Under the pieces are notes generated by a model, which was not told where the DNA came from, ran no database searches, and saw nothing but the letters and a program-made list of their open reading frames with translations. Positions 17,995-57,490 of a DNA stretch of 64,000 nucleotides are shown here, in pieces. Position 1 is the first letter of the stretch. Every line of letters begins with the position of its first letter. The DNA is from Janthinobacterium sp. PC23-8 (GTDB taxonomy: Bacteria; Pseudomonadota; Gammaproteobacteria; Burkholderiales; Burkholderiaceae_D). The translations under genes were made by a program, and so were the position numbers. The stretch spans positions 59,453-123,452 of the forward strand of contig NZ_NJGY01000004.1 of the NCBI RefSeq assembly GCF_002250505.1. Reading direction: 5' to 3'.

Positions 17995-18023
17995 ATTATA
18001 CCGACGCGTCGGACTATTTATAA
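17995..18023 (-). promoter_or_regulatory. Promoter of the thiolase-fusion-ligase operon, containing the operator
   Basis: On the minus strand a perfect -10 TATAAT (18000-17995) lies 17 bases from a weak -35 TTATAA (18023-18018). The palindrome at 18001-18012 fills the spacer, so a bound repressor would block RNA polymerase. Confidence 0.5.
18001..18012. promoter_or_regulatory. TetR-type operator copy 1 (CCGACGCGTCGG)
   Basis: A perfect 12-base palindrome, identical to the copies at 29834 and 38252, in A/T-rich flanks. It is 97 bases before the GTG start of the thiolase gene (17903). Confidence 0.7.
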
Positions 18024-24930: not shown

Positions 24931-24944
24931 ACCGTCGTGACGGT
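24931..24944. promoter_or_regulatory. TetR-type operator copy 2 (ACCGTCGTGACGGT)
   Basis: A perfect 14-base palindrome, ACCGTC-GT-GACGGT, in A/T-rich sequence (TATTATATATTTAG before, TTATAAATTAAAT after). It is 127 bases before the leader ORF and 168 before the ligase start at 25112. Confidence 0.6.
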
Positions 24945-27694: not shown

Positions 27695-29855
<2,161 letters not shown>

Positions 29856-34624: not shown

Positions 34625-34652
34625 ATTATAAATAGTCCGACGCGTCTGTCAA
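34625..34652 (-). promoter_or_regulatory. etfBA promoter, consensus sigma-70
   Basis: On the minus strand a perfect TTGACA (34652-34647) and a perfect TATAAT (34630-34625) are 16 bases apart. Operator copy 5 overlaps the -35 box and spacer. Confidence 0.7.
34637..34648. promoter_or_regulatory. TetR-type operator copy 5 (CCGACGCGTCTG)
   Basis: Matches the consensus with one change in the right arm, where the sequence also has to form the minus-strand -35 TTGACA. Upstream of etfB. Confidence 0.6.
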
Positions 34653-34848: not shown

Positions 34849-35439
34849 TTATTTCTCGGCAAGGAACCCGCGCAGAAACAAGCGCGATATCCGCTCAACG
34901 AGCTCTTGCGGCTTGATGGCTCCGGTGGGCTTATACCAGGTATCGGTCCAGTTCATCATGCCTATCAGGAGCATCCCGTAGGGCTTGTACAAGGAATCGT
35001 CCAGAGTGGGATTCACGGCGCGCAAATACTCCGTGACCAGATCGAGCACTTTGGTTTCCAATTTCTGAATCGGGTCGAGCATCGCTTTTGGCAGGAATTT
35101 TACATCGTTCATTGCAACAACATGTCGCCGGCGCGTCTGTGCCGACTTTTGGGTGAAGGTCTGCACCATTGCCAGGAAGCGTACTTGCGGATCGGATCCG
35201 CTCGTTTCGATGCTCATGATGGCGGAAATGACGGAATCGAGATGATCTTTGAGAATGGCAAACAAAATCTCGTCTTTGGTGGGGAAGTAATGGTACAACA
35301 TCGATTTCGACGCTTTGCAGTTCTTGGCAATCTGCTCCATTTTCACGCCAGGATAGCCGGTCTTGGCGAACAAGGCAGCTGCCGCATCCATGATTTGCTT
35401 CATCTTGAGATCGTAATCATCAGCACGAACGCGTGACAT
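34849..35439 (-). CDS. TetR-family transcriptional regulator
   Basis: The protein has 196 residues. The N-terminal helix-turn-helix (about residues 12-58) reads IMDAAAALFAKTGYPGVKME then CKASKSMLYHYFPTKDEIL, the standard TetR recognition helix. The rest is a helical ligand-binding domain with no signature I can assign. It is divergent from the P450-bioF pair, with operator copy 7 between them, and sits beside etfBA. Because eleven similar palindromes lie before the operons around it, I infer that it is their repressor and that an acyl-CoA or related intermediate releases it. That it binds these sites is not shown by sequence alone. Confidence 0.9.
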   Translation of the reverse strand: MSRVRADDYDLKMKQIMDAAAALFAKTGYPGVKMEQIAKNCKASKSMLYHYFPTKDEILFAILKDHLDSVISAIMSIETSGSDPQVRFLAMVQTFTQKSAQTRRRHVVAMNDVKFLPKAMLDPIQKLETKVLDLVTEYLRAVNPTLDDSLYKPYGMLLIGMMNWTDTWYKPTGAIKPQELVERISRLFLRGFLAEK

Positions 35440-35579
35440 ATTCTAATTTCCTAACTTAAATTACAGAGTGGTATGCCGGTGCTCGACCGGGTAAATGTGC
35501 AAGGAAGATGGCTTCGCCATAGGCTGCGGTAACAGCGGACCGGCTCGGCGACAACGCGTAACGGCGGCCCATTCATAAA

Positions 35580-35591
35580 CCGTCGCGGCGG
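35580..35591. promoter_or_regulatory. TetR-type operator copy 7 (CCGTCGCGGCGG)
   Basis: Lies 141 bases before tetR and 134 before the P450 gene. AAACCGTCGCGGCGGTAGTTT has symmetric A/T ends. Weak -10-like TATCAT (35597-35602, plus) and TATGAA (minus) on either side would let it control both directions, including autorepression. Confidence 0.6.
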
Positions 35592-35724
35592 TAGTTTATC
35601 ATGAATTGCTTGACTTTCGCCCCGATTCTTGCATCGGATTCGCCAGCATGTCCGAATGCGCGCTACCGCCCTCTCCTTTTCATGCGGCCATACACATCGA
35701 CTCAAGCTCTTTACGGAGAAACTC

Positions 35725-37011
35725 ATGCAAACATTCGTTCCGACCAGCGCTGCTCCGGCTTCGGCCATGGTCACCGATCAATTCTACGCCGATCCCTATC
35801 CTGCCTATCAGGCTTTGCGGGTGGCGGGGCCACTGCACTGGAGCACGCAATTTTGCGGCGGCGCGTGGCTGTTGCCAAACTACTCAGACGTCGCTTCGGT
35901 GCTGCGCGATGCGCGCTTCTCGGTACGCCGCGCCGGCGGCTGGGCCAACAGCAGCGGGCCCGATGCCCTTGCCGAATTACGTGAATTCAAGCGTATTTTT
36001 TCGCGCTCCCTACTGTTTGTCGATGCCCCCCAACATACCCGCTTGCGTCAAGCCATGAACGGTGGCTTCAAGCCGGCGGCCATACAGGCGTTGGCGCCGC
36101 AGATTCAAGTCATCGTCGATGACCTGCTCGACAAGATACTTGCCACGCCGTCGGGCCGGTTCGACTTTATGCGGGACTTTGCCCGCCCCCTGCCGGCGCT
36201 GGTGATTGCGACGATGCTCGACATCGACGGCAACGACCGGGCCGCATTTGTCGCGTGGTCAGACGACATCGCCGCCTTCATTGGCAGCCCGACCCCCACC
36301 ATCGAGATTGCCCGCCGCGCCCAAACCAGCTTGTTGGCAATGAATGACTATTTTCGCGCCCTGCTGCCGGCGCGCCGCGCGCGTCCGGGCCATGACCTTG
36401 TCAGCCAACTGATCCTTGCAGAAGCGCAAGGCGGCATCGTCACCACCAAGCAATTGCTGGCGCAATGCTGCACCCTTTTGTTTGCCGGGCATGAGACCAC
36501 CCGCAACCTGCTCGGCAATGGCATGCTGGCGCTACTGCAGCATCCGCAACAGTGGCATGCGCTGCGGCACAATCCGTCGCTGCTGCCAAACGCGATCAAG
36601 GAGCTATTGCGTTTCGACAGCCCGGTGCAATACAGCGGCCGGCGCCTCGCCACGGACGTCTGCCTGCATGGGCAGACGATGAAGAAGGGACAGCTGGTGA
36701 TTGCGCTGATCGGCGCGGCCAACCGCGACCCCGCAAAGTTCGCCGTTCCCGACGCCTTGAATATTGTGCGCAATGAGGGCAGCCACCTGTCATTCGGCCA
36801 CGGCCCGCATGTCTGCATCGGCGCAACGCTGACCTATATGGAAGCGGAAATTGCGTTGCGCACTATCATGCGGCGCATGCCCCAACTGGCGTTGCACGGC
36901 GCCGTACCGGCGTGGGGGAACAATGCGGTTTATCGCAGCCTGCAGGCGCTGCCGCTGTGTTTTGCCGCAGCGCCTGCAATGGCGCAGCCGGAGTGCATGC
37001 TCCATGAGTAA
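35725..37011 (+). CDS. Cytochrome P450
   Basis: A soluble bacterial P450 of 428 residues. The oxygen-binding I-helix is FAGHETTRN (253-261), the E-x-x-R pair is in KELLRFDSPVQYSGR, and the heme ligand is Cys364 in FGHGPHVCIGA. There is no membrane anchor and no fused reductase, and no ferredoxin gene is near. ATG 35725 has GGAG nine bases upstream. The bioF start lies inside its last codons, so the two proteins are coupled. This pairing suggests a BioI-like role, cutting a long acyl chain to pimelate, but a hydroxylase for the pathway substrate is equally possible. Confidence 0.92.
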   Translation: MQTFVPTSAAPASAMVTDQFYADPYPAYQALRVAGPLHWSTQFCGGAWLLPNYSDVASVLRDARFSVRRAGGWANSSGPDALAELREFKRIFSRSLLFVDAPQHTRLRQAMNGGFKPAAIQALAPQIQVIVDDLLDKILATPSGRFDFMRDFARPLPALVIATMLDIDGNDRAAFVAWSDDIAAFIGSPTPTIEIARRAQTSLLAMNDYFRALLPARRARPGHDLVSQLILAEAQGGIVTTKQLLAQCCTLLFAGHETTRNLLGNGMLALLQHPQQWHALRHNPSLLPNAIKELLRFDSPVQYSGRRLATDVCLHGQTMKKGQLVIALIGAANRDPAKFAVPDALNIVRNEGSHLSFGHGPHVCIGATLTYMEAEIALRTIMRRMPQLALHGAVPAWGNNAVYRSLQALPLCFAAAPAMAQPECMLHE

Positions 37012-38173
37012 GCTGACCCATGACATCGGCGCCCAGTTACAGCAGTTAAAGGAACAGGCGCTGTTGCGCCAGAGGCGCATCGTCGACGGTCCGCAAGGCC
37101 CCCTCTTGAGCATCGACGGCCGGCAGTATCTGGCGTTCAGCAGCAACGACTATCTCGGCTTGGCCAACCACCCGGCGCTGGTTGCCGCCGCCCACGAGGG
37201 CCTGCGGCGGTTTGGCGTTGGCGCCGCCTCGTCGGCGCTTATTAGCGGCCACAGCAGCATTTATGAGACGCTCGAAGTTGCCCTGGCAAACTTTGTCGGC
37301 ATGCCAAGGGCCTTGCATTTTTCCAATGGCTATATGGCCAACCTGGGCATCCTTCCCGCCCTGGCCGGTCCCGGCGACACCATTTTTTCCGACCGTCTGA
37401 ACCATGCATGTCTGATCGATGGCGCGCGCCTTTCCAGAGCCGAGTTTCGCGTCTATCCCCACAACGATGTCGGGCGCCTGGCGCAACAGCTCGGCAAGAG
37501 CCGCAGCGGCCGCAAGCTGATCGTGACCGACGGCGTGTTCAGCATGGACGGCGATCTTGCACCACTGGCCGAGCTGGTGGCACTGTGCGAGCGCCACGAC
37601 GCCTGGCTGCTGGTCGACGACGCGCACGGCTTCGGCGTGCTCGGTCCGCAGGGACGCGGAAGCCTTGCGCACCTCGGGCTAAGCTCGCCGCGAGTGCTCT
37701 ACATGGGAACGCTCGGCAAGGCCGCTGGCGTTGCCGGCGCCTTTGTCGCCGGGGATGCGGTGCTGATCGAATGGTTGCTGCAGCGCGCCCGCACCTATGT
37801 CTTCACCACGGCCAGTCCACCATTGCTGGCCAGTGCGCTGCTGGCGACACTGACGCTGCTGCAAACCGAAACATGGCGCCAGCAGCATCTGCGCCAGCTG
37901 ATCGCGCAATTGCAAAACGGCCTGGCCGGTCTGCCATGGACCCTGCTTGACTCCGAGACAGCAATCCAGGCTCTGGTGGTGGGCAACAATCAATTGGCGC
38001 TCGATCTGATGGCGCGCCTGCGCGAGGCCGGCATTTGGGTTCCCGCCATCCGCCCCCCCACTGTACCGAAGGGAACTGCCCGCCTGCGCATTTCGCTGTC
38101 TGCGGCCCACAGCACCGACCAGGTGGCGCAACTCATCGCCGCCATCTGCGCGGCGGCCGCCGCCATGGCATGA
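37004..38173 (+). CDS. bioF: 8-amino-7-oxononanoate synthase
   Basis: The protein has 389 residues of the alpha-oxoamine synthase family. The PLP lysine is Lys239 in GTLGKAAGVAGAF, with LVDDAHGFGVLG and LNHACLIDGARLSRAEFRV nearby. The C-terminal stretch SETAIQALVVGNNQLALDL and WVPAIRPPTVPKGTARLRIS fits BioF itself better than serine palmitoyltransferase-like relatives. It condenses pimeloyl-CoA/ACP with alanine in biotin synthesis. The start overlaps the P450 stop by 8 bases. No bioA, bioD, bioC or bioH is visible here; bioB is at 44385. Confidence 0.88.
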   Translation: MSKLTHDIGAQLQQLKEQALLRQRRIVDGPQGPLLSIDGRQYLAFSSNDYLGLANHPALVAAAHEGLRRFGVGAASSALISGHSSIYETLEVALANFVGMPRALHFSNGYMANLGILPALAGPGDTIFSDRLNHACLIDGARLSRAEFRVYPHNDVGRLAQQLGKSRSGRKLIVTDGVFSMDGDLAPLAELVALCERHDAWLLVDDAHGFGVLGPQGRGSLAHLGLSSPRVLYMGTLGKAAGVAGAFVAGDAVLIEWLLQRARTYVFTTASPPLLASALLATLTLLQTETWRQQHLRQLIAQLQNGLAGLPWTLLDSETAIQALVVGNNQLALDLMARLREAGIWVPAIRPPTVPKGTARLRISLSAAHSTDQVAQLIAAICAAAAAMA

Positions 38174-38241: not shown

Positions 38242-38271
38242 TTGACTTTGACCGACGCGTCGGTTTATTAT
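38242..38271 (+). promoter_or_regulatory. Promoter of the thiolase-fusion-racemase operon
   Basis: TTGACT (38242-38247), an 18-base spacer and TATTAT (38266-38271). The operator lies wholly in the spacer, as at fadH. Confidence 0.6.
38251..38264. promoter_or_regulatory. TetR-type operator copy 8 (ACCGACGCGTCGGT)
   Basis: A perfect 14-base palindrome identical to copy 3, followed by TTATTATAAAT. It is 155 bases before the thiolase start. Confidence 0.75.
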
Positions 38272-38418: not shown

Positions 38419-39624
38419 ATGACTGAAGCCTACATTTTTGACGCAGTACGCACGCCCCGAGGACGCGGTCGCGCTTCCGGTGCCCTGCATGAAGTCCCGT
38501 CGGCCCGGCTGGCGGCGAACGTGTTGCGCGAAATACGTGATCGCAACAATCTCGACACATCGCAACTCAATGATGTCATCCTGGGCTGCGTCGAAGCGGT
38601 CAACGAACAGGCATCCAACATTGCCAAGGCCGCCGTGTTCGCCTCCGGCTTCGATCCCAAGGTCCCCGGCCTTCAGCTTAACCGCTTCTGCGGCTCCGGT
38701 CTGGAAGCCTGCAACTTCGCCGCTGCCATGGTGAAGGCCGGCCAGGCCGAGCTGATCATCGGTGGCGGCGTGGAAAGCATGTCGCGGGTACCGATGTTCA
38801 CCTCGGGCGCGCCATGGGTGACCGATCCGCAGATTACCCTCGGCCATCGCATGATCCCGCAAGGTATTTCGGCCGATCTCATCGCCACCCTGTATGGGCA
38901 CAGCCGGCGTGACGTCGATGCCTACGCCGTCGAAAGCCAGCGGCGCGCCGCTGCCGCGTGGGCCAACGGCTACTTCACATCGGTCGTGCCGGTACGCGAC
39001 GTCAATGGCATCGTGATCCTGGACCGGGACGAACATTTCCGGGCCGATACGACGCTCGAGACGCTGGCGGCCCTCGCTCCCTCTTTCCTGACCCTGGGCG
39101 AAAAGCTCGGCTTCGACGGGGTCGCCCTGCAGCGTTATCCACACCTGGCGGGCATCGAGCATGTGCACCACGCCGGCAATTCCTCAGGCATCGTCGATGG
39201 GGCGGCGGCGGTGCTGATTGGCAGCGCAGAGGCGGGCAAGGCTCAGGGCTTGAAGCCGCGCGCACGCATCGTCTCGTTCGGCACGGTCGGCTCGGAACAC
39301 ACGATCATGCTGACCGGCCCCGCTCCCGCTGCGGAAATGGCGCTGCGCCGCGCCGGCATGAACGCCAGCGATGTCGACCTGTTCGAATGCAACGAAGCAT
39401 TCGCTTCGGTGGTCCTGCGCTTCATGGACGCGCTTGGCGTCCCCCACGACAAGGTCAACGTCAACGGTGGCGCGATCGCCCTGGGCCATCCGCTTGGCGC
39501 GACCGGCGCCATGCTGATCGGCACCGTTCTCGATGAACTCGAACGGCGCGATCTCGCCACCGGCCTGATCACCATGTGCGTGGGCGGTGGCATGGGTTCG
39601 GTGATGGTGATCGAGCGCCTGTAA
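38419..39624 (+). CDS. Acetyl-CoA C-acyltransferase (thiolase), second copy
   Basis: The protein has 401 residues: Cys91 in [34 protein letters not shown] and the closing motif [13 protein letters not shown] with the usual second catalytic Cys and glycines. It is a standard degradative thiolase, clearly related to the one at 16695. ATG 38419 follows GGTAGAAAA. It heads a plus-strand operon with the fusion protein, racemase homologue and DUF2889 genes, controlled by operator copy 8. Confidence 0.92.
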
Positions 39625-39674: not shown

Positions 39675-41810
39675 ATGATTGATTACCGAGTAGATGAGGA
39701 TGGCATCGCGACCCTGGCATGGAACGTTGCCGATCGCCCCATGAACGTATTGAACGCCGCATCGATCCTGGCCTTTGGCGAGGCCGTGCAACGCGCGATC
39801 GCCGATGCCGCGGTCAAGGGTGTGATCGTCACGTCGAGCCGCCCGGAATTCGTGGCCGGCGGCGATCTGGCCCTGCTGGGCGCCATCAAGACGGCGCAAG
39901 AGTCGATGGCGACAAGCGGCCCGATCAGCCGCATTTTGCGCGATCTGGAGCGCTGCGGCAAACCGTTTGTCGCGGCCATCAATGGCACCGCACTGGGCGG
40001 TGGTTTCGAACTCTGCCTGGCCTGCCACCGGCGCATCGCGGCGGACAATCCCAAAGCACAGTTCGGTTTGCCGGAAGTGTCGCTGGGCCTGCTGCCGGCC
40101 GCCGGCGGCACGCAACGGCTGCCGCGCATGATCGGCATTCAACAGGCGTTGCCATTTTTGACGGAAGGACGCAAGGTGGCGCCGGCCGCCGCGCTGGCCG
40201 CCGGACTGGTCGATGAAGTGGTGCCGGCCGACCAGCTGCTGGTCCGCGCCAAGCAATGGCTGCTCGCCGAAGGTCCGCGCAGCGCCATCCGGCCGTGGGA
40301 CGCCAAGGGATTCAAGTTTCCCGGCGGCACAGTCCAGACGCCCGCAGTGCAACAGCTGTTCGCCGCCATCGGCGGGGGCGTGCTCAACAAGACCCAGGGG
40401 CTTTACCCGGCGATCGAGGCGATCCTCGCCAGCGTCCATGATGGCTGCCAGGTCGATCTGGACACCGGCCTGAAGATCGAGCAGCGCCAGTTCGCGCGAC
40501 TGTCCACGTCCGCCACCACCAAGAACATGATACGCACCCTGTTCTATTCGATCGGCGCCGCCAACGCTCTGGCCGAGCGTCCGCGCGACGTGCCTTCCAT
40601 GCGCTACAGCAAGATTGCGGTGATTGGAGCGGGCATGATGGGTGCCGGCCTGGCGTACGTCGCCGCGCGCGCCGGTCTGCCCGTCGTCTTGCTCGACGTC
40701 TCGCTCGACGCTGCGGAAAAGGGCAAATCCTACGCCGCCAAATCCATGGACGCCCAAGTGGCGAAGGGCCGGCTGACCGCGCAGGCCCGTGACCAGACCT
40801 TGTCGCTCATCACCGCAAGCGCCGACTTCAGCACGCTCAAGGATTGCGAACTGGTGATCGAAGCGGTCTTTGAAAGCCGTGAGGTCAAGGTGGAAGTGAT
40901 CCGCAAGGCCGAGCAATTTTTATCCGACAGCGCCATCTTTGCGACGAACACCTCCACCCTTCCCATCAGTAGCCTGGCCGAATTTTCATCGCGTCCACAG
41001 CAATATGTCGGCATGCACTTTTTCTCGCCGGTCGAGCGCATGCCGCTGGTGGAAGTCATCCGTGGCAAGCAGACCAGCGACCGCACCATCGCCCTGGCGA
41101 TGGACCTCGTGAAACAGCTGCGCATGACGCCGATCATCGTCAATGACTGCCGCTCGTTCTACTGCAACCGGGCCTTTGCGCTGTTCCCCTACGAAGCCAT
41201 GGCCATGCTCGACGAAGGGGTCAATCCCATCCTGATCGAAAACGCGGCGCGGATGGCTGGCATGCCCATGTCGCCACTGGCCCTGGTCGATGAATTCTCC
41301 ATCGAGCTGATGTACAAGACCCTGCAGGCCGCGAAGGCCGACCTTGGCGAGAGCTACGTCCGGCAGCCGCAGGACCCGGTACTTGAAAAAATGATCGAGC
41401 AGTTCGACCGTGTCGGCAAGAAGAGCGGGCGCGGCTTTTACGATCACCCGGCCGGCGGCAAGAAGCAATTGTGGCCCGGCCTGGCCCAACATTTTCCGGT
41501 CGCCGATGAACAACCCGATGTCGACGAGGTGCGCAAGCGCATGATGTACGTGCAATCGGTGGAAGCGGCGCGCTGCGTGGCCGAAGGCATCGTCAGCGCC
41601 CGCAACGCGGACGTCGGCTCGATCCTGGCCTGGGGCTTCCCGGCGGCGCTGGGCGGCGCCATCAGCCAGATCGACACTATCGGCGCGGCCCGCTTCGTGG
41701 CCGAGTGCGATCGCCTGGCCGCCTTGCATGGCCCGCGCTTTGCGGTGCCGCCCCAGTTGCGCGAGATGGCGGCGCGCGGCGCGCGCTATCTCGACGACAT
41801 TCCATCGTGA
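39675..41810 (+). CDS. Enoyl-CoA hydratase/3-hydroxyacyl-CoA dehydrogenase fusion, second copy
   Basis: The protein has 711 residues laid out like the one at 14495: crotonase part with [26 protein letters not shown] and [20 protein letters not shown], then the NAD part from about residue 310 ([20 protein letters not shown]) with catalytic-His segment [15 protein letters not shown]. It should carry out two successive beta-oxidation steps. The linker between the domains (about 210-300, [20 protein letters not shown]) is conserved between the copies. The thiolase stop is 50 bases upstream and the racemase-like gene 22 bases downstream. Confidence 0.92.
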
Positions 41811-41832: not shown

Positions 41833-42999
41833 ATGGCTGGACCACTGACAGGAGTGACAGTAGTCGAATTGGCCGGCATCGGCCCTGGCCCCTTTGCCGG
41901 CATGATCCTGGCCGATATGGGCGCGACGGTGATCCGCATCGACCGCAGACCATCGAGCCAGCCGGGAGCGCTGGACGAGATGATGATCAATGACGGCATC
42001 GTCGACCGCGGCCGCGCCTCCATTGCCCTGGACTTGAAGGACCCGCGCGCCATCGATGTGGTGCTGCGCCTGGTCGAACGGGCCGACATCCTCATCGAAG
42101 GCTATCGCCCGGGCGTTACCGAGAAACTCGGACTCGGTCCCGAGCGCTGCCTGGAACGCAATCCCAAACTGGTGTACGGGCGCATGACAGGATGGGGCCA
42201 GTCCGGTCCGCTGGCGCAAGCGGCCGGACATGACATCAACTACATCGCCTTGTCCGGCGCACTGCATGCGATGGGCCCGGCCGACCGTCCGCCCGCCCCG
42301 CCCCTCAACCTGGTCGGCGACTATGGCGGCGGCGGCATGTTGCTGGCGCTTGGCGTGCTTGCTGCGGTGCTTGAATCCGGGCGCTCCGGGCAAGGGCAAG
42401 TAGTGGATGCGGCGATGACCGATGGCGCGGCTTTGCTGATGGCCACGCTCTATGGACTGAAAGCGAAAGGGCAGTGGCACACCGAACGCTCCAGCAACTT
42501 CCTCGACGGCACGGCGCATTTCTACGGCGTCTATGAATGCGCCGACGCCAAATTCGTGTCGATAGGCCCGATCGAGCCGCAATTCTACAAGCTCTTGCTA
42601 CAGAAATGCGGCATCGACGATCCGCAATTCCGGCATCAATGGAATCCGGCCGAATGGGAGGCCTTGAAGGTCAAACTGGCCCTGCTGTTCAAATCGCGCA
42701 CACGGCAAGCCTGGTGTGAGCTGCTCGAGGGCAGCGATGTCTGTTTCGCCCCGGTGCTCGATATGGACGAAGCGCCGCACCACCCGCACAATGTGGCGCG
42801 CGCGACCTTTGTTCCCTACCAGGACACCATGCAGCCGGCGCCGGCGCCGCGCTTCGGACGGACCCCGAGCGACGTGCCCGCGCCGGCGCCGGCGACCGGA
42901 CGGGACACCGTGCGCCTATTGGAAACCTGCGGCTACTCGCCAGAGGAAATTGCCGCATTGCTGCTGGCCAATGTGGCGCACGCGGCGCAAGGCACGTAG
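41833..42999 (+). CDS. Alpha-methylacyl-CoA racemase-like (CaiB/BaiF family)
   Basis: The protein has 388 residues of the family III CoA-transferase fold. GRMTGWGQSGPLAQAAGHDI with His133 and LVGDYGGGG with Asp163 match the His/Asp pair of alpha-methylacyl-CoA racemases, with the same 30-residue spacing as in the mycobacterial enzyme. Such racemases turn (2R)-methylacyl-CoA into the (2S) form that dehydrogenases accept, which would point to a 2-methyl-branched substrate. A CoA-transferase role is the alternative. ATG 41833 follows AAAGGA. Confidence 0.87.
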   Translation: MAGPLTGVTVVELAGIGPGPFAGMILADMGATVIRIDRRPSSQPGALDEMMINDGIVDRGRASIALDLKDPRAIDVVLRLVERADILIEGYRPGVTEKLGLGPERCLERNPKLVYGRMTGWGQSGPLAQAAGHDINYIALSGALHAMGPADRPPAPPLNLVGDYGGGGMLLALGVLAAVLESGRSGQGQVVDAAMTDGAALLMATLYGLKAKGQWHTERSSNFLDGTAHFYGVYECADAKFVSIGPIEPQFYKLLLQKCGIDDPQFRHQWNPAEWEALKVKLALLFKSRTRQAWCELLEGSDVCFAPVLDMDEAPHHPHNVARATFVPYQDTMQPAPAPRFGRTPSDVPAPAPATGRDTVRLLETCGYSPEEIAALLLANVAHAAQGT

Positions 43000-43069
43000 C
43001 GGCACTGGCGCCGCATGCGACGCGGCGCCAGCGCGTACGCGGGCCGACACAACACGAAAGGCATCGAAG

Positions 43070-43648
43070 ATGAATAGCACCGACCATAGCCCGGAACGCC
43101 GCGTATTGCACGTTCGACGTATCACCTGCATCGCCTATGCGCGCGACGATGACTGCATCGACGTCGAAGGCACACTGATCGACACCAAGCCCTACGGCGT
43201 CAGATTGCCCGAACGCGGCGAACTGCAGCCTGATGAAAAAATCCACGAAATGACGCTGCGCCTGACGATCGACAAGAACATGACGATCCGCGACGCGGTG
43301 GCATTGACCACGCACAGCCCGTACAAGATCTGCGGCGCCATCGCCGCCAACTACCGGCAACTCATCGGCATACGCATTGAACCGGGCTTCGTGCAGCGTA
43401 TCAAGCGCCTGTTCCGGGGCACGGCCGGTTGCTCGCACATGACTGAATTGCTGCCGCCCATCGCGACCACCATGTTCCAGGCGCTCTGGGGCGACTCGAC
43501 GCAGTTCGATCCCGACGCGCCAGGCGATGCGGGCCGCGGTCTGTCTCCGCTCAACGGCTGCCACGCTTTGCGCACTGACGGCGAGATCGTCAGGCAGTAT
43601 TTCCCGAACAGTTACCGCCCCCTCGACAAGGCCCCGGACGAGGCTTGA
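43070..43648 (+). CDS. DUF2889 family protein
   Basis: A soluble 192-residue protein with no signal peptide or membrane segment. The region VEGTLIDTKPYGVRLPERG and CRTLT-like blocks around KICGAIAANYRQLIGIRI, plus GCSHMTELLPPIATTMFQAL, match the DUF2889 family, whose function is unknown. GCSHMTEL, with Cys and His close together, could be a metal or catalytic site (inference). It is the last gene of the operon starting at 38419. DUF2889 genes are often found beside acyl-CoA catabolic genes. Confidence 0.8.
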   Translation: MNSTDHSPERRVLHVRRITCIAYARDDDCIDVEGTLIDTKPYGVRLPERGELQPDEKIHEMTLRLTIDKNMTIRDAVALTTHSPYKICGAIAANYRQLIGIRIEPGFVQRIKRLFRGTAGCSHMTELLPPIATTMFQALWGDSTQFDPDAPGDAGRGLSPLNGCHALRTDGEIVRQYFPNSYRPLDKAPDEA

Positions 43649-43689: not shown

Positions 43690-44370
43690 TCAGGGCACGA
43701 AATCATGAGCGGCATCGCCATTGGCCACGGCCAAATTCGGGTAAGCGGCCAGCATTTCCGCTGAAAATTTCTCAAAGGGAAGGTCCGACCAGACACCGTG
43801 ATCGGCGACATAGCTCATATGCTGCCGATGGTGCTGGTCGAACTCCTGCAAAATGGCGTCGGCGCGGCCATCAAATTCGGTCGGCATCACGCCAAAGCGC
43901 TGGCACAATTGGATGTTGAAGGCGGGAGCGGCCTTGCGCCACCTGCCGGCGATATGCAGCAAGGCATAACCATGATTGATGAACAAGGTCGAGCCGCCCA
44001 TCCACTGCTTCAACTTCTCGCTCGTCAAGTGATTCGTCACGTCCGCCAGGCCGATGGCACTGGGAATGCCTGCGGCGCGCGCCGCCGCGCACAACAGCAG
44101 CGCTTTCGAGACACAGTAGCCGCGATCCCCAGCCAGCACCTGGCTGGCGACATGCGCGTCGGCGCTCATCGTCACGCCAAAGGGATCATAGCGCCAACCG
44201 TCGCGCACCCAGTAGAACAGGCGTACCGCGCGCTCGGTATCGTCGAGCGCTCCCGCGCAAACGGTGCTGACCGCCGTGCGCAGCGCCACATCATCGATAT
44301 CAAAAAATCGCGTCGCGGCCAGATAACGGGGGCCAGGCTGCGGAAAAGCGCCAGACGGTGTATGAATCAT
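43690..44370 (-). CDS. Transglutaminase-like cysteine protease-fold protein
   Basis: The protein has 226 residues. The transglutaminase core is seen in YWVRDGWRYDPFG, then DRGYCVSKALLLCAAARAAG with the candidate nucleophile Cys86, and NHGYALLHIAGRWRKAAPAF with His133. The third triad position is Asn152 rather than Asp, a form I recall in a subgroup of these proteins. No signal peptide is seen. The substrate is unknown. It starts 14 bases after the bioB stop, so both are probably on one mRNA. The ATG at 44370 has AAGGA at better spacing than ATG 44373. Confidence 0.82.
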   Translation of the reverse strand: MIHTPSGAFPQPGPRYLAATRFFDIDDVALRTAVSTVCAGALDDTERAVRLFYWVRDGWRYDPFGVTMSADAHVASQVLAGDRGYCVSKALLLCAAARAAGIPSAIGLADVTNHLTSEKLKQWMGGSTLFINHGYALLHIAGRWRKAAPAFNIQLCQRFGVMPTEFDGRADAILQEFDQHHRQHMSYVADHGVWSDLPFEKFSAEMLAAYPNLAVANGDAAHDFVP

Positions 44371-44384
44371 CATATTTTCCTTGA

Positions 44385-45467
44385 TTAATATTGTCGTGCA
44401 TTGGGCCGCATCGGGTTTGCCTCGCTGCGCTCCTGGCCCCCACAATCGGACTTGCGCACTTCGCCCGGCACCGTGGCGCGGGTGTGCAGGCCGAGCTTTC
44501 CAAGCAGCGCACGGTCGTCATGCGCCTCCGGGTTGTCGGTGGTCAAGAGCTTGTCGCCATAGAAAATCGAGTTGGCGCCGGCCAGGAAGCACATCGCCTG
44601 CACCGCTTCGCCCATCTGGCGGCGGCCGGCCGACAGGCGCACGCGCGCCTGCGGCATGGTGATGCGGGCGACCGCAATGGTGCGCACGAATTCAAACGGA
44701 TCGAGCGGCTCCAGACCGTGCAGCGGCGTGCCTTCGACCTGCACCAGATGGTTGACGGGCACCGATTCAGGATACGGATTGAGGTTGGCCAACTGGGCGA
44801 TCAGGCCGGCGCGCTGCAGGCGCGTCTCGCCCATGCCGACGATGCCGCCGCAGCAGACCTTCAGGCCGGCACCGCGCACGCGCCCCAGGGTATCCAGGCG
44901 GTCCTGGTAGGCGCGGGTCGAGATCACGTTGTCGTAGAACTCGGGCGCCGTATCGAGGTTATGGTTGTAGAAATCGAGGCCGGCGTTTTTCAGGCGGTCG
45001 GCCTGGCCTTCTTCCAGCATGCCCAGGGTGGCGCAGGTTTCCAGGCCGAGAGCCTTGACCTGACTGACCATTTCTTCGACTTTTTCCATGTCGCGCTCCT
45101 TCGGGCTGCGCCACGCCGCGCCCATGCAAAAGCGCGTCGCGCCGTTGGCCTTGGCCTGGCGCGCCGCGTCGAGCACCGCTTCAATGCCCAGGATCTTGCT
45201 CGCTTCGACCCCGGTGTCGTAGCGCGCGGCCTGCGGGCAGTAGCCGCAATCCTCCTCGCAGCCGCCGGTCTTGATCGACAGCAGCGTCGCCAGCTCGACG
45301 TCGCCCGCCGGGAAATTGGCGCGGTGCGATTGCTGGGCCCGGAACATCAGCTCATTGAAGGGCAGCTCGAACAGGGCCAGCACCTCGGCCAGCGGCCACG
45401 TCGCCGCCTCCGGCAAGGTGACCGGTGCGACGCGCGGGTGAAAGGAGACAGCGTGGGATGGAGTCAT
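44385..45467 (-). CDS. bioB: Biotin synthase
   Basis: A radical-SAM enzyme of 360 residues. The 4Fe-4S cluster motif C-x3-C-x2-C is Cys70-Cys74-Cys77 in [12 protein letters not shown]. Family blocks [18 protein letters not shown], then [20 protein letters not shown] and [10 protein letters not shown] follow. It inserts sulfur into dethiobiotin. The C-terminal 20 residues extend past the usual end. The gene starts at ATG 45467 with AAGGAA upstream and has no copy of the palindrome before it, so it may be constitutive rather than in the TetR regulon. Confidence 0.95.
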
Positions 45468-45648
45468 GTGGGTTCCTTATGCAATCAAGTTTGAACGTGC
45501 GGCCGCAGCCGACCGCAATGTCGTCGGGCATCAAGTGGCGCTGGCAGCGGCCGCGCGGCCGCGCGTACCAGCGTCAGGTACAGCTGATCATGCACATTGC
45601 ACCAGCGGCTCGATGACGATGGCGCCGAGCCGCTGTGCTAGACAGTTC

Positions 45649-45692
45649 TTGGTACTTACTTGGTACTTACTTGGTACTTACTTGGTACTTAC
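45649..45692. repeat. Four tandem copies of an 11-base unit (TTGGTACTTAC)
   Basis: Four perfect head-to-tail copies lie directly after the 3' end of the hydratase gene (stop 45695-45693) and before bioB. The unit is not a codon multiple and lies outside genes. It looks like a minisatellite that could vary in copy number; it is not a CRISPR array, since there are no spacers. Confidence 0.9.
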
Positions 45693-46502
45693 TTAGACAG
45701 GTCCCTCCGGCACGATCTGATCCCTGCCGCGGCTGATCACGGACCGGCGGGTGGCGCCAAATCGGGCCGCGTCAAACCGGCGCACGGATTGCTTGGCCAG
45801 CTCGGCTTCGAGCAGCAAGCCTTGACAAACAGTCTGGTGCAGGCCAACGCGCATCGCGGCACGGACATCGCGCACCGTCCTCGGGTCGCAGCCGATGATG
45901 TCCCTGGCGAGCTTGCGGCAGTACGGCATCAACTCGCCGGGCGCCAGAACGTCGAGCACCATGCCCCAGTCCTTGGCCGTCGCGGCATCCAGATAATTTC
46001 CCGTAAAGCTCAAATAGCGGGCGCGCACCGGACCGATCAGCATGGCCAGGTATTGCGTCAGGCCCCAGGCGGGCACAACGCCAACGCGCGCATGGGTGTC
46101 GGCGAAGCTTGCGTTCGTCGAGGCCACCAGGATATCGCAATTGACCGCCAGCTCGAAGCCGCCGGTCACGGCATAGCCATTGATGGCCGCGATCGTGGGC
46201 TTGCGCAGCTTCTCGAATGCCTGCATGATCGGGCAGTCGACCCCCATCTCTTCCGGCTGCAGCGGCGCCACCTCAAACTCCTTCAGGTCGGCGCCGACCG
46301 AGAACGCCTTGTCGCCGGCGCCGGTAAAAATGATCACGGCGACGTCGTCGTCGTCATCGAGTGCCTGCAATGCAATGAGAAGATTGCCGCGCAGCTCGCG
46401 CGACAGCGCATTGTGTTGACATGGCCTGTTCAGGGTGACCGTTGCGATCTTGTCAAAAACATCGATCAGCAAGCTGTCGCCGGCCAGCGGGTAACGTTTC
46501 AT
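45693..46502 (-). CDS. Enoyl-CoA hydratase/isomerase family protein
   Basis: A crotonase-fold protein of 269 residues with FSVGADLKEFE and INGYAVTGGFELAVNCD. The second block reads ADTHARVGVVPAWGLTQYL. In hydratases this position carries the second catalytic Glu (PE motif); here it is Thr-His, as in a broad subgroup of crotonases whose reactions vary. Hydratase activity is therefore not certain. It follows the acyl-CoA dehydrogenase gene by 50 bases, under operator copy 9. AAGGAAG lies before ATG 46502. Confidence 0.85.
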   Translation of the reverse strand: MKRYPLAGDSLLIDVFDKIATVTLNRPCQHNALSRELRGNLLIALQALDDDDDVAVIIFTGAGDKAFSVGADLKEFEVAPLQPEEMGVDCPIMQAFEKLRKPTIAAINGYAVTGGFELAVNCDILVASTNASFADTHARVGVVPAWGLTQYLAMLIGPVRARYLSFTGNYLDAATAKDWGMVLDVLAPGELMPYCRKLARDIIGCDPRTVRDVRAAMRVGLHQTVCQGLLLEAELAKQSVRRFDAARFGATRRSVISRGRDQIVPEGPV

Positions 46503-46552
46503 AGTAGAACTTCCTTCAACGATTCCAGTTTATCCACGCTGGCGCAGTCTTT

Positions 46553-47713
46553 TCACATCCGCTTGGCGACCTCTTCAAGCATCACCTCGGTCGCTCCGCC
46601 GCCGAAGGTCAGAATGCGCGCATCGCGCGTCATGCGCTCGATCGGTGTGCCGATGATAAAGCCGGTGCCGCCATGCAGCTGCAGGCAACCATGCACGACT
46701 TCTTGCAGCGTTTCGCACGCATACGCCTTGAGCATCGACACTTCGCGCACCGTATCTTTTCCCTCGTCTATCATCTGCGCGCAGGAATAGACCAGCGCGC
46801 GCGCGGCCGCAGCCTTGGCCGCCAGCCAGGCAAGCTTGTTGCGCACGACGGGCTGATCCCATAGCGTCTTGCCAAACGCCTGCCGGGTCTTCATGTAGTC
46901 CGCAGTCAATTCGATTGCCTTCGCACATTGCCCCACGCTCATTGCGCCAGCGACCAGGCGCTCGTTCTGGAAGGTGCTCATGATGTAGTAGAAGCCCTTG
47001 CCTTCTTCGCCGAGCAGATTTTCCGCAGGCAAACGCAGATCGTCGAAGAACAACTCCGCCGTGTCCGATGCGCGCCAGCCATGCTTGTCAAATTTCGTCC
47101 CGACCGTGAAGCCCGGCATGCCCTTTTCGACGATGAACAGCGAAATGCCGCGACTGCCCTTGGCCTCGATGTCCGTCTTGGCGGCCACCACGTAGATGTC
47201 GCCATAGACGCCATTGGTGATAAACGTCTTGCCACCGTTGAGGATCCAACCATCGCCATCCCGAACCGCCCGCGTCTTGATCCCCGCCACATCGGACCCG
47301 GCATGCGGTTCTGTCACACAAATCGCGCCGATCTTGTCGCCTGCGCACGCCGCCGGCAAAAAGCGCTCCTTTTGCTCGGGCGTGCCACGGTGGGCAATGT
47401 GGGCTATCGACATGTCGCTGTGCACGGTGATGGCTGCGGCAACGCCGCCGTAGCTGCAACGCGCCAGCTCCTCGCCGAGGATGACCGACGCCATTGAGCC
47501 CATATCGCCACCACCGTATTGGCTCGCATGGCGCATTCCCAGAAACCCGAGCGCGCCGAGTTCCTGGAACAGTTCGCGCGGAATATGGCCGCTTTGCTCC
47601 CATGCATCGGCGCGCGGCGTAATGCGCTCGTCGACGAAGCGGCGAATCTGGGCCCGTATCATGAGCAATTCCTCGCTGAGAATATTCGGTTCGTTAAATT
47701 CAAAGATGTTCAT
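46553..47713 (-). CDS. Acyl-CoA dehydrogenase
   Basis: The protein has 386 residues with CVTEPHAGSDVAG and NGGKTFITNGVYGD (flavin/substrate loops) and the C-terminal motif RILTFGGGATEVMLEEVAKR. As in the enzyme at 18128, a Gly replaces the medium-chain catalytic Glu, so the base probably lies in helix G near NERLVAGAMSVGQCAKAIEL. Its closest character is that of short/branched-chain enzymes. ATG 47713 gives MNIFEFNEP; a longer frame to 47746 is unlikely. The promoter and operator copy 9 are about 90 bases upstream. Confidence 0.9.
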   Translation of the reverse strand: MNIFEFNEPNILSEELLMIRAQIRRFVDERITPRADAWEQSGHIPRELFQELGALGFLGMRHASQYGGGDMGSMASVILGEELARCSYGGVAAAITVHSDMSIAHIAHRGTPEQKERFLPAACAGDKIGAICVTEPHAGSDVAGIKTRAVRDGDGWILNGGKTFITNGVYGDIYVVAAKTDIEAKGSRGISLFIVEKGMPGFTVGTKFDKHGWRASDTAELFFDDLRLPAENLLGEEGKGFYYIMSTFQNERLVAGAMSVGQCAKAIELTADYMKTRQAFGKTLWDQPVVRNKLAWLAAKAAAARALVYSCAQMIDEGKDTVREVSMLKAYACETLQEVVHGCLQLHGGTGFIIGTPIERMTRDARILTFGGGATEVMLEEVAKRM

Positions 47714-47796
47714 ATGATGGATCCTATTTTGAATGGAGCAGCGCAAGCCAATTCCCGCAATGTCGAAACGATTCCAGCTGGACGCCGGCCATCTTT

Positions 47797-47826
47797 ATTA
47801 TATACCGACACGTCGGTTTATGTAAT
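47797..47826 (-). promoter_or_regulatory. Promoter of the dehydrogenase-hydratase pair with operator copy 9
   Basis: On the minus strand a perfect -10 TATAAT (47802-47797) lies 18 bases from ATTACA (47826-47821). The operator fills the spacer. The -35 box overlaps the 3' end of the RND gene. Confidence 0.5.
47804..47817. promoter_or_regulatory. TetR-type operator copy 9 (ACCGACACGTCGGT)
   Basis: A 14-base palindrome with one central change, squeezed between the RND stop codon (47818) and the dehydrogenase start (47713). Confidence 0.7.
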
Positions 47827-50277
47827 GCGAATTTCAGCGCCTGCGGCAGCCTGTGATGACTTCGGGTTGAGCAAAAAATGGGACAGGGCCGGTATCAGCA
47901 CCAGGGCGCCGAGCATATTCCAAAGGAACATAAAGGTGAGCAAGATACCCATATCTGCCTGAAACTTGATCGGCGACCATACCCAGATGATGACGGCGGT
48001 GCCCAGCGTGCATCCCACCAGCGCCACCACCCGACCGGTGAACTGGACCGCCTGCTTGTAAGCTGCAGCCAGCGGCCACCCTTTGCGCTGATAGGCCAGT
48101 TGCACCGATAGCAGATACAGGGCGTAGTCGACACCGATACCGACCCCGAGCGCGACCACCGGCAGCGTCGCCACCTTGACGCCCAAGCCCAGTGCGACCA
48201 TCAGCGCCTCGCACAGCACGGAGGTGATCGCCAGTGGCAAAACGGCGACGACGACCGCGCGCCAGCTGCGAAACGTCAAAAAGCACAAAGCGATGACGGC
48301 GGCATACACATACAGCAGCATGGTGCGGTTTGCCTCCTTGACCACAATATTGGTCGCCGCTTCGATGCCGGCGTTGCCGGCCGCCAGCAGGAACTGGCGC
48401 TCGCCGGTGCCATGTTTTTTCGCGAAGTCGGCGGCGACGCTGGTGACCCGAGCGAGCGTATCGGCCTTGTGATCGGTCAGGTAGGCGATGACCGGCAGCA
48501 CGGAACAATCGCGGTTGGTCAGGTCCGGATTATTCATCAGCGCCTGGTTACCGGCGAAATTGATCGTTTCCCGATTGCGCGGGATGGTCTGCCACTTCGG
48601 ATTTCCCTCGTAGCCGCCGGCGGTCGTCAGGCGCACGGCGTCGGCCAGCGATACCGTCGCCTGCACGCCTGGCACTTGCTGCAGCGCCCATCCAAGCCGG
48701 TCCGCCTCGACCAGTGTCTTGAAATCGAGGCAGCCATCGCGCGGCGTCTTGACGATCACCGCGAATTGATCGCTCGATAGCGCGAAATGATCGGTAATAA
48801 AGGCATTGTCGCGGTTATAGCGCGATTCGGGACGCAGTTCGGGCGCCCCGGCATCGAGATCGCCGATCTGCAGATGCAGACTGACAGCAAAGCCGGCCGC
48901 AGTCGCCACTGCGGCGCCGGCGAGCACCACGCTCGCCCATTTGCGCTCCGTCAGGTGGTCGAGCGACGCCCACAGCCGGCCCATGCCCTTGCCTGCGGAT
49001 TCGGCCTGTTCCGCCCGCAGGCTGCGCGCGGCGGCCCGGGGGCTGACACCGGTATAGGACAGGACCACAGGCAACAGGATCAGGTTGGTGAAAATGAGGA
49101 CCCCCACGCCTATGCTCGCCGTCAAGGCGAGGTACCTGATGACCGGAATGTCGATCACCATCAACACGGCGAAGCCGACGGCGTCGGCCAGCAAGGCCGT
49201 CATGCCCGCCAGGAACAGGCGGCGGAAGGTATAGCGGGCGGCCACCAGGCGATGGGTGCCGCGTCCCACGTCCTGCATGATGCCATTCATTTTTTGGGCG
49301 CCATGCGACACGCCAATGGCGAAGATCAGGAAGGGCACCAGGACCGAATAGGGATCGATCTCGAATCCCAATGCCGAGATGCATCCCAATTCCCACAGGA
49401 CGGCAATGATGGAACAGGCAATCACCAGTAGCGTACTGCGAAGGCAACGCGTATAAAAGAAAATGAACGCCATCGAAATGAGGACAGCGGCGCCAAAATA
49501 GGCCGCCACTTTGACCACCCCTTCGATCAAATCCCCCATCAGTTTGGCAAAGCCGATAATGTGGATACGGACCTCGCCGGCGGGCTTGCCCGCCCCCGCC
49601 CCTGTCTCGTATTTGGCGCGTATATCGCGTTCGAGGCCAAGCGAAAACGCCCGGTAGTCGAGACGCTCGGTAGCGCGGGCGCCCTTCTCGAGCAACGGGA
49701 CCACGATCATGCTCGAGCGTTGATCGGCGGCGATCAAATTCTGCGCGGTCGCCGATTTGGCTATATTTGTCCGCAACAGGTCGATACTCTGCGGCGAGCC
49801 ATTGTAACTCTCCGCGACCACCGGCCCGCCCTGGAATCCTTCCTCCGTCACCTCGGTCCAGCGTACCGACGGCATCCACAGCGACTTTACCCATGCGCGG
49901 TCCACGCCCGGCATCAGCGTCAGATCATCGGTGATGCGCCTGAGCGTGTCGAGATAGCGGGCATCGTAAATCATGCCGTCCGGATTTTCAACGACGACCC
50001 GCACGGCATTGCCCAAGCCCGCCAGTTCGCTCCGGTTATCCAGGTAATTCTGAATATACGGGTGCCCCTGGGGCAGCATTTTCTCGAAACTGGCGTTCAG
50101 TACCAGTCTGGTTGCCATGAAATACGCCGCGACAGCCGTCACGGCCACGCAGGCGAGAATCACCACCAGTCGGTTGTTGAATATTATGCGTTCGAGCCAG
50201 GAACCGGAGTTTGCATCAAAATCGTGCAATTGCGCCACGACCGGCATATCATCGAATTCAGTCATCGCATGCGCCAT
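47818..50277 (-). CDS. RND-superfamily (MMPL-type) transporter
   Basis: The protein has 819 residues with twelve predicted membrane spans in two groups of six. Each group follows one span and a large periplasmic loop (roughly residues 60-250 and 465-640). Typical RND sequences are FLIFAIGVSHGAQKMNGIM in helix 4 of the first half and VALGVGIGVDYALYLLSV in the second, with charged residues in the membrane for proton coupling. MMPL-type members move lipids or hydrophobic acids. It is co-transcribed with the YCF48-like gene 45 bases upstream, a pairing that is common beside DUF1302/DUF1329 genes and suggests export or uptake of the lipophilic substrate. Confidence 0.9.
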   Translation of the reverse strand: MAHAMTEFDDMPVVAQLHDFDANSGSWLERIIFNNRLVVILACVAVTAVAAYFMATRLVLNASFEKMLPQGHPYIQNYLDNRSELAGLGNAVRVVVENPDGMIYDARYLDTLRRITDDLTLMPGVDRAWVKSLWMPSVRWTEVTEEGFQGGPVVAESYNGSPQSIDLLRTNIAKSATAQNLIAADQRSSMIVVPLLEKGARATERLDYRAFSLGLERDIRAKYETGAGAGKPAGEVRIHIIGFAKLMGDLIEGVVKVAAYFGAAVLISMAFIFFYTRCLRSTLLVIACSIIAVLWELGCISALGFEIDPYSVLVPFLIFAIGVSHGAQKMNGIMQDVGRGTHRLVAARYTFRRLFLAGMTALLADAVGFAVLMVIDIPVIRYLALTASIGVGVLIFTNLILLPVVLSYTGVSPRAAARSLRAEQAESAGKGMGRLWASLDHLTERKWASVVLAGAAVATAAGFAVSLHLQIGDLDAGAPELRPESRYNRDNAFITDHFALSSDQFAVIVKTPRDGCLDFKTLVEADRLGWALQQVPGVQATVSLADAVRLTTAGGYEGNPKWQTIPRNRETINFAGNQALMNNPDLTNRDCSVLPVIAYLTDHKADTLARVTSVAADFAKKHGTGERQFLLAAGNAGIEAATNIVVKEANRTMLLYVYAAVIALCFLTFRSWRAVVVAVLPLAITSVLCEALMVALGLGVKVATLPVVALGVGIGVDYALYLLSVQLAYQRKGWPLAAAYKQAVQFTGRVVALVGCTLGTAVIIWVWSPIKFQADMGILLTFMFLWNMLGALVLIPALSHFLLNPKSSQAAAGAEIRIT

Positions 50278-50322
50278 GATTGTGTCTCCCCAATTAAATT
50301 GCTAACAGTGCGCACAGTTTGC

Positions 50323-51489: not shown

Positions 51490-51617
51490 AACTATCTCCT
51501 TTTATCAGGCGGCCACGCGCTGTCGCCGCCTGTGCAGTCCCGTGTATCGTCCACTTCCGGTCACAATGATGATCGGGGGAAAAACCGGGCTGCTTGTTTA
51601 TTATATTAACTTATATT

Positions 51618-51629
51618 CCGTCGCGTCGG
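51618..51629. promoter_or_regulatory. TetR-type operator copy 10 (CCGTCGCGTCGG)
   Basis: Lies 128 bases before the YCF48-like gene, followed by TCTATTTAATAAA. On the minus strand TATAAG (51615-51610) could be the -10 box; the -35 is poor. Confidence 0.7.
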
Positions 51630-51668
51630 TCTATTTAATAAACCGGATAGTGGCACTTCCGATACCGC

Positions 51669-52442
51669 CTAACGACCGGTAAATGCCGGTTTTTGTTTTT
51701 TCAGGAACGCCCGAATGCCTTCGGCGGCATCGGCCGTCGCAAACGCCTGTGTCTGCGCATCGGCTTCGGCACGCATCATGGCGTGGAAGCTGCCGCCGGC
51801 CTGCAGCACCTGCTTGGACAAGCGAAATGCCGCCGTCGGGCCGCTGGCGATGCCATGGGCCAGTTTCAGCGCTTCGGCCACCACCGATCCGGTTGGCACC
51901 GCTTGATTGATCAAGCCAATTGCCGCCGCTTCCGAGCCTTTGAGAATTTTTCCGGTGTAGATCAATTCGAGCGCCTTGTTCAGACCTAGCCGCTCCAGAA
52001 AGTAATAATGCGCCCCGGTGTCGGGCACCAGGCCGATATGACGGAATGGACTGCCGAAACTGGCGTCGTCATCGGCAATGCATATGTCGCACGACAACGC
52101 CAGCCCGAGACCGAAACCGAGCGCCGGACCGGCGACGGCCGAGATGGTCGGAACAGGCAATTCGCGCAACAGCTGGCAAAATGGCGCCACGACATTGGTG
52201 ATGACCTCGAAAGGATTGTCATCGGCCACGCTGACCGAGGCGAGATCCCATCCGGCCGAGAAGACGCTGGCGGCGCCGCGAATGACGATACAGCGCGCGC
52301 CATCGCGCATCGCCGCCTCCAGCTGCGCCGCAACCAGATCGACGTACTGGGCTTGAAAACAATTCATGCTCGTCGGCAGGTTCAGGACAATCTCGCTCAC
52401 GCCATCGCGTTGCAGGCGTGCTACCGCATTTTTTTCTGTCAT
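51669..52442 (-). CDS. Enoyl-CoA hydratase/isomerase, PaaG-like
   Basis: The protein has 257 residues. Crotonase blocks VFSAGWDLASVSV and GPALGFGLGLALSCD are followed by RHIGLVPDTGAHYYFLERLG, where Asp replaces the hydratase Glu in the way seen in PaaG-type isomerases. It probably shifts a double bond or acts on an unusual enoyl-CoA. It is the last gene of the minus-strand operon DUF1302-DUF1329-ligase-hydratase, 77 bases after the ligase stop. Confidence 0.85.
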   Translation of the reverse strand: MTEKNAVARLQRDGVSEIVLNLPTSMNCFQAQYVDLVAAQLEAAMRDGARCIVIRGAASVFSAGWDLASVSVADDNPFEVITNVVAPFCQLLRELPVPTISAVAGPALGFGLGLALSCDICIADDDASFGSPFRHIGLVPDTGAHYYFLERLGLNKALELIYTGKILKGSEAAAIGLINQAVPTGSVVAEALKLAHGIASGPTAAFRLSKQVLQAGGSFHAMMRAEADAQTQAFATADAAEGIRAFLKKQKPAFTGR

Positions 52443-52519
52443 GGGACTGGTTCCTTTTCGATTACAAATTAAGCGCCCGCGCCGACGGCCGGCATGGCGT
52501 GTGCGGCGCGGCGATTTCT

Positions 52520-54067: not shown

Positions 54068-54232
54068 CACGCCTCCCCATCCCATCATCGGTCGCATCGC
54101 CGACCAGTTCTTCCGTGAACGACCCCGCCCGCGCCACGGCCAACACGTCCTCGCTGCCGAGAGACGCGTCGAGCCTGCATGCTGGTCTATCATACGCCGC
54201 CCGGCCATCACGGCCGAGCGGCAAATGGCGAA

Positions 54233-55585: not shown

Positions 55586-55604
55586 ATCTGTGCTTCCTCT
55601 CAAA

Positions 55605-57460: not shown

Positions 57461-57490
57461 GCAATAGACCGTCGCGTCGGTCTATGTGAA
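57461..57490 (-). promoter_or_regulatory. Promoter of the DUF1302 operon
   Basis: On the minus strand TTCACA (57490-57485), an 18-base spacer and a weak TATTGC (57466-57461). The operator lies in the spacer. Confidence 0.4.
57465..57484. promoter_or_regulatory. TetR-type operator copy 11 (20-base palindrome)
   Basis: The longest match in the set: arms TAGACCGTCG and CGTCGGTCTA pair with a single mismatch. Core CCGTCGCGTCGG is 57469-57480. Confidence 0.75.

Follow-up and report, generated by a model that had tools for sequence, protein, structure and literature searches.

A cytochrome P450-bioF pair in a putative TetR-controlled acyl-CoA degradation regulon of Janthinobacterium sp. PC23-8 and its likely part in biotin synthesis

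The stretch of Janthinobacterium sp. PC23-8 DNA analysed here (64,000 nucleotides, below called the window) carries a cytochrome P450 gene that overlaps bioF, and this pair shares its operator sequence with genes of acyl-CoA degradation. A part in biotin synthesis is likely for the pair, because this P450-bioF combination recurs in complete biotin operons elsewhere, and we estimate at roughly two in three the probability that it is part of a supply-on-demand unit, in which a degradation regulon would switch on a biotin-dependent carboxylase and extra biotin genes together. A new observation is that the same operator precedes a biotin-dependent carboxylase operon just beyond the window as well as a putative operon with a second bioB. 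The pair would sit in an acyl-CoA degradation regulon that is acquired and under TetR control, and whose repressor would be released by the degraded compound or its CoA ester; the degradation enzymes, the biotin-dependent acyl-CoA carboxylase, P450-BioF and the second BioB would then be made together. The P450 would make or mature the seven-carbon (pimeloyl) precursor for BioF, as it may in the related betaproteobacterial biotin operons, and BioA and BioD would be supplied from the main biotin operon of the genome. Gene order, the overlap, the common operator sequences, the genomic linkage elsewhere and the carboxylase operon behind the operator are observed; repression, inducer, chemistry, co-transcription of bioB and the benefit for biotin supply are inferred. 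The features of the pair and its control region are as follows.

34849..35439, minus strand: TetR-family regulator gene (TetR_N + TetR_C_24, profile matches), running divergently to the P450 gene
35579..35592, no strand: operator-like palindrome between tetR and the P450 gene, 13/14 to ACCGWCGCGWCGGT, AT-rich flanks
35725..37011, plus strand: cytochrome P450, 428 aa (open reading frame, Pfam, alignment, fold search)
37004..37011, plus strand: P450/bioF overlap ATGAGTAA, 8 nt
37004..38173, plus strand: bioF (above the equivalog cut-off, alignment, tree)

The end of the P450 frame and the start of bioF have the eight nucleotides at 37004-37011 in common, in agreement with the 8-base overlap given in the preliminary description of this DNA, whose coordinates are correct, and a GGAG-type stretch is found a few bases 5′ of both starts. 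The P450 matches Pfam p450 and, by family match, alignment and fold search, has a P450 fold with an intact heme region; the conserved P450 motifs are retained in an alignment of 13 sequences, including the heme-cysteine region, AGHETT and ExxR. The bioF product scores 483.9 bits against the NCBIfam bioF equivalog TIGR00858 (cut-off 426.45); in the same search it does not reach the thresholds set for the KBL, SPT, ALAS and autoinducer synthase models. Aligned with 1bs0, it retains the pyridoxal phosphate (PLP) lysine and the DDAHG stretch of E. coli BioF.

The tetR gene runs opposite to the pair, and the palindrome ACCGTCGCGGCGGT at 35579-35592 lies between them, at distances of 140 bp (tetR) and 133 bp (P450) from the respective gene starts, which bears out the divergent arrangement with a common operator described earlier. 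When a site is required to match ACCGWCGCGWCGGT at 11 or more of 14 positions and to have AT-rich flanks, the window holds 11 operators; 40 first-order Markov shuffles yield 0.2 on average and never more than 2. Genome-wide, all three exact matches and 9 of the 19 one-mismatch matches fall in C7:77-140 kb, about 1% of the genome; by count, the operator is real. Operators to the right of the window are paired approximately 90-100 bp apart (10336/10436 and 16195/16283 in locus L124), unlike most of the window sites. The remaining operators and the genes of the regulon in the window are listed below.

18000..18013, no strand: operator, 13/14
24931..24944, no strand: operator, 13/14, 5′ of an acyl-CoA ligase gene
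29833..29846, no strand: operator, 14/14; weaker copy (11/14) at 29935
34636..34649, no strand: operator, 12/14, 5′ of etfB + etfA; further copy (11/14) at 34768
38251..38264, no strand: operator, 14/14, 5′ of the thiolase gene, in the spacer of a promoter-like TTGACT-18-TATTAT (38242-38271)
38419..39624, plus strand: acyl-CoA thiolase gene, first after operator 38251 (profile matches)
39675..41810, plus strand: FadB/FadJ-like hydratase-dehydrogenase gene (profile matches)
44385..45467, minus strand: second bioB (biotin synthase), 87% identical to bioB of the main biotin operon (profile match, identity)
45693..46502, minus strand: enoyl-CoA hydratase (ECH) gene 5′ of bioB
46553..47746, minus strand: acyl-CoA dehydrogenase (ACAD) gene, first of a putative ACAD-ECH-bioB operon
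47804..47817, no strand: operator, 13/14, 5′ of the ACAD-ECH-bioB group
51617..51630, no strand: operator, 13/14
57468..57481, no strand: operator, 14/14, flanks less AT-rich, 5′ of DUF1302 + DUF1329 genes; weaker copy (11/14) at 57504

Of the operators to the right of the window, two (74336 and 74436 in window numbering) lie 47 and 147 bp 5′ of a biotin carboxylase gene, which is followed by genes for an HMG-CoA lyase, a hydratase and a carboxyltransferase, a 103-codon frame and an acetoacetate-CoA ligase gene. With the biotinyl domain assigned by a biotinyl-like motif in the 103-codon frame, the operon behind these operators apparently encodes a complete biotin-dependent acyl-CoA carboxylase. 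From what is known of these families, a gene set of this kind would be expected where a methyl-branched acyl-CoA is degraded, for example in the catabolism of leucine or isoprenoids. Another two operators (80195 and 80283) are found farther right, near dehydrogenase, hydratase and thiolase genes. The putative regulon thus holds a biotin-requiring enzyme as well as biotin genes. The preliminary description had suggested that the pair ties biotin precursor supply to fatty acid availability; a tie to acyl-CoA degradation is consistent with the common operators, but demand for the cofactor would fit better than availability because the regulon includes the biotin-dependent carboxylase. A literature search on LiuR and biotin gave no lead.

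The second bioB, said earlier to be some 6 kb away, indeed lies 6.2 kb from the end of bioF, and scores 401 bits against TIGR00433 (cut-off 225). After the operator at 47804 the order on one strand is acyl-CoA dehydrogenase, enoyl-CoA hydratase and bioB, and a scan of 45350-46560 found no promoter- or terminator-like site; the three genes may be co-transcribed. The biotin genes of the window seem to have been gathered from two sources, since its bioB is 87% identical to the genome's own bioB (about 77% to that of Collimonas) whereas its bioF is only about 55-56% identical to the genome's other bioF. A transglutaminase-like gene (43690-44445) follows bioB on the same strand with an apparent overlap, and a 47% similar gene is found near an unrelated P450 in locus L040. 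The acyl-CoA degradation cluster also includes a DUF2889 gene (42716-43648) and MMPL, YCF48-like, DUF1329 and DUF1302 genes (47818-57347), the last four being a set that often accompanies the degradation of hydrophobic compounds.

The association of the P450 with biotin genes extends well beyond the window. The P450 was detected in 4 of 120 relatives and 7 of 399 genomes of the order, the own genome included in both counts; the 39 other members of the genus do not have it. Scanning genome contigs yielded 16 P450 loci, 12 of which show at least 61% identity, and a plasmid search matched 231 records, with six P450s at 49-55% identity among the 20 listed. Pooled by P450 similarity, these yield 27 places with a homologue of at least 44% identity, several of which are close kin (Collimonas) and not independent; loci L039-L042, with P450s of 28-36% identity in other contexts, lie outside this set. 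In 21 of the 27 places the P450 stands beside bioF or bioB (the window, L022/L025, L023, L024, L026, L027-L035, L037, L038, L102, L104, L105, L112 and L129), in Collimonas, Paralcaligenes, Cupriavidus and Polaromonas plasmids and a 1.2-Mb genome, and all four bio genes are present in the fetched stretch in 16 of the 27; in L105 the four have broken frames.

All eight Collimonas-type loci compared (L029, L031 and L032 were left out) have the order carboxyltransferase, hydratase, P450, bioF, bioA, bioD, bioB, carboxylase, mostly with room for another gene between carboxyltransferase and hydratase. The order is bioB, P450, bioF, bioA, bioD in L026, L033 and L037 and bioA, bioF, bioD, bioB, P450 in two Cupriavidus plasmids, and in the 1.2-Mb genome (G271) the P450 heads bioF-bioA-bioD. 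The arrangement therefore varies among the relatives while the association between the P450 and bio genes persists. Moreover, the P450-linked bioF is the sole bioF over the cut-off in 13 genomes, with the linkage checked in each and the count weaker for two small or partial bins among them (incomplete bins are G124, 1.7 Mb, and G129, 3.0 Mb). Some of these loci have peculiarities of their own. In L025 (G052:C9) a second P450 (68%) follows a bioB split over two frames, behind biotin carboxylase and urea-amidolyase/PxpC-like genes, and the plasmid bio operons with P450 in Polaromonas and Cupriavidus have split frames (bioF and P450 in L104; bioA, bioD and bioB in L105), as if decaying. In the literature searched (titles and abstract openings, with subscription journals thinly covered, so that absence is not proved), no paper was found that describes a P450 within biotin operons of betaproteobacteria.

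The trees of the two proteins point in the same direction. In the P450 tree, 26 betaproteobacterial rows, 20 of them bio-linked, form one group (SH-aLRT 99), in which the window protein groups with those of Collimonas, Paralcaligenes and G052. The BioF tree places the window protein in the same company, within a group of 13 rows that are all P450-linked (support 97), and both trees pair L026 with L112 and L102 with L105; the two trees agree in their main groups. The rows do not include L104, in which the P450 is split, and those of L024, L031 and L042 contain a stop in the stretch, shown as X. The end branches (P450, then BioF) measure 0.23 and 0.15 in the window, 0.15 for both proteins in L023, and 0.18 and 0.19 in L033.

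Several findings weigh against a supply-on-demand role of the pair in biotin synthesis. The genome has a complete bioA-bioF-bioD-bioB operon elsewhere (C4), enclosed by carboxylase genes, whose bioF scores 453.6 bits against TIGR00858, and it also has a BioC-like gene (175 bits, cut-off 185) adjoining a comF-like gene; the P450-bioF pair is an extra route, the need for which is not obvious. The main operon, in this genome and one congener (L121 6086-15002; L122 5693-14721), is without a P450 and lies between acyl-CoA carboxylase subunit genes in the order carboxyltransferase, hydratase, bioA-bioF-bioD-bioB, carboxylase. BioC-like genes are present in 19 of 20 genomes, including 14 of the 15 with the P450 (the miss is a 1.7-Mb bin), and in 4 of 4 further P450 genomes, among them the 1.2-Mb one, three of these four having the P450 away from bio genes; altogether 18 of 19 P450 genomes have one. 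In the four cases tested BioC was the best NCBIfam model, each time under its cut-off. Such retention of BioC is not predicted by a plain BioC bypass. In 6 of the 27 places (L036, L101, L103 and L113-L115) the P450 lies away from bio genes. The window's gene group lacks bioA and bioD, the operator was sought in 14 other bio loci, including the genome's own main operon, and found in none, and matches with two mismatches are not enriched genome-wide (174, against 388 for the pattern read backwards). The operator case accordingly rests on sites with zero or one mismatch and AT-rich flanks, and the regulatory tie between operator and bio genes is seen only in the window. Among the off-operon relatives, the P450 of L101 adjoins a pyruvate carboxylase gene, and the loci L113-L115, from three members of a single genus, hold same-clade P450s of 44-47% identity, with a pabB-like (aminodeoxychorismate synthase) neighbour in L113.

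The preliminary description had raised the case of a missing bioC, which is not so, given the BioC-like gene, and had proposed a BioI-like P450-BioF unit in biotin synthesis; that the pair serves biotin is most likely, given the complete operons in relatives, but it would be an addition and not the sole precursor source, because the full operon and the BioC-like gene are present. The pair as the only pimelate route was rejected on the same grounds, and a replacement of bioC by the P450 in Collimonas and others was not borne out, as the BioC-like genes are kept. Of a second bioC-bioH-bioF set, which had been named as speaking against that proposal, the second bioF within its full operon and the BioC-like gene were found, whereas no BioH (TIGR01738) exceeded its cut-off; the same holds for all 20 genomes, the own one included, with or without the P450, which makes the result uninformative.

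The likeness of the P450 to BioI itself is equivocal. Among P450s of solved structure, BioI ranks first by family profile (343.3 bits, against 338.7 for the next) and by predicted fold, both in Foldseek and in VIA-align 2 (Z 45.5, the next protein having 44.4), with a mean pLDDT of 78 for the predicted model. To the detriment of a BioI assignment, PikC outscores BioI when the single window sequence is used, the identity is 34% to BioI and 35% to PksS, and BioI falls outside the betaproteobacterial clade in the P450 tree, where forcing it in gives p 0.10 and is not rejected. With margins this small, the P450 is best described as BioI-like in its setting and is not called a BioI orthologue; membership of BioI, as implied by the preliminary description, is not supported at an identity no greater than that to PksS. 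BioI is reported to cleave acyl-ACP (ACP, acyl carrier protein; PMC8024396), and a 2025 paper describes it as unique to B. subtilis and redundant there, as B. subtilis BioF does not take pimeloyl-ACP (PMC12915131); its redundancy is likewise stated in PMC11089781.

Other explanations can be offered for the pair. The P450 might work with BioC, releasing pimeloyl-ACP from its methyl ester by oxidative demethylation and so replacing the esterase BioH, an unlikely chemistry for which we know of no precedent. It would explain the retention of BioC-like genes in 14 of 15 P450 genomes and all four further ones and why BioH is over the cut-off in none of the 20 genomes; no BioH reaches the cut-off in the five control genomes lacking the P450 either, however, and nothing favours this route strongly. 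Besides, other hydrolases are known in BioH's place (PMC12915131), and cleavage of the BioI type does have precedent. It is correspondingly doubtful that a biotin P450 was recruited a second time, independently, in betaproteobacteria and that this enzyme completes BioC by freeing pimeloyl-ACP oxidatively, a case in which an oxygen-dependent step would be tied to the biotin supply of carboxylases encoded adjacently. Equally improbable is a P450 acting as catabolic hydroxylase for the substrate of the regulon, with bioF present by chance or for supply only. The operators common with acyl-CoA degradation genes, the six relatives away from bio genes and the P450 end branch of the window, the longest of the three, would suit such a role, but the other relatives sit in bio operons, the remaining genes of the stretch in the 1.2-Mb genome do not look catabolic (judged by eye, without a family search), and the window end branches differ little from those of L023 and L033, which are operon members, giving no strong sign of a changed task.

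That the pair makes a different alpha-oxoamine from a pathway acyl-CoA, the alternative raised in the preliminary description, appears very improbable. Enzymes of the BioF superfamily use several acyl-CoAs, and related enzyme families are among the NCBIfam models matched by bioF. Two things speak against this reading: the bioF product clears the bioF equivalog cut-off but none of the KBL, SPT and ALAS cut-offs, and relatives have the pair linked to bioA, bioD and bioB. The window bioF belongs to a group of 13 P450-linked BioF, the others being encoded alongside bioA and bioD. Finally, the pair and bioB could be redundant hitch-hikers of a transferred island, without benefit to the cell. The complete second biotin gene set agrees with this idea, as does the lack of the P450 and of any tetR match (E≤1e-40) in the genus outside this genome (39 others searched). 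It nevertheless seems improbable: neither the frames nor the key motifs are damaged, and bioB is apparently of another lineage than P450-bioF, as if biotin genes had been collected more than once.

If the supply-on-demand reading holds, synthesis of a cofactor is seemingly controlled by the pathway that consumes it, with one operator standing before the carboxylase, P450-bioF and the bioB group. The betaproteobacterial P450-bioF operons, which in 13 genomes hold the only bioF over the cut-off, would offer a system in which a real role for a P450 biotin route can be tested, and with it the purpose of a biotin P450 and the location of the BioH function in these bacteria become testable.

The arrangement resembles several known systems in part. 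Like BioI (CYP107H1) of the Bacillus subtilis biotin operon, the P450 is encoded among biotin genes, here through its overlap with bioF; it differs in lying outside the BioI branch of the tree (though joining is not rejected), in a genome with a BioC-like gene, under a TetR operator and within an acyl-CoA regulon. The diiron oxygenase BioE of Elizabethkingia and Chryseobacterium, reported also in Burkholderiaceae (PMC12915131), is a ferritin-like non-heme iron enzyme and not a P450. FadP of Ralstonia and other Burkholderiales is, like the predicted regulator here, a TetR-family repressor over several beta-oxidation operons, a likeness drawn from its published description, which in the portion available names no biotin genes (PMC12543098). 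Another counterpart is the Collimonas operon, which has the same P450 and bioF lineage (73-78% identity) and likewise the P450 followed by bioF. The Collimonas genes sit between acyl-CoA carboxylase genes together with bioA and bioD, while the window group is without these two, has its bioB apart and resembling another lineage, and carries the TetR operators.

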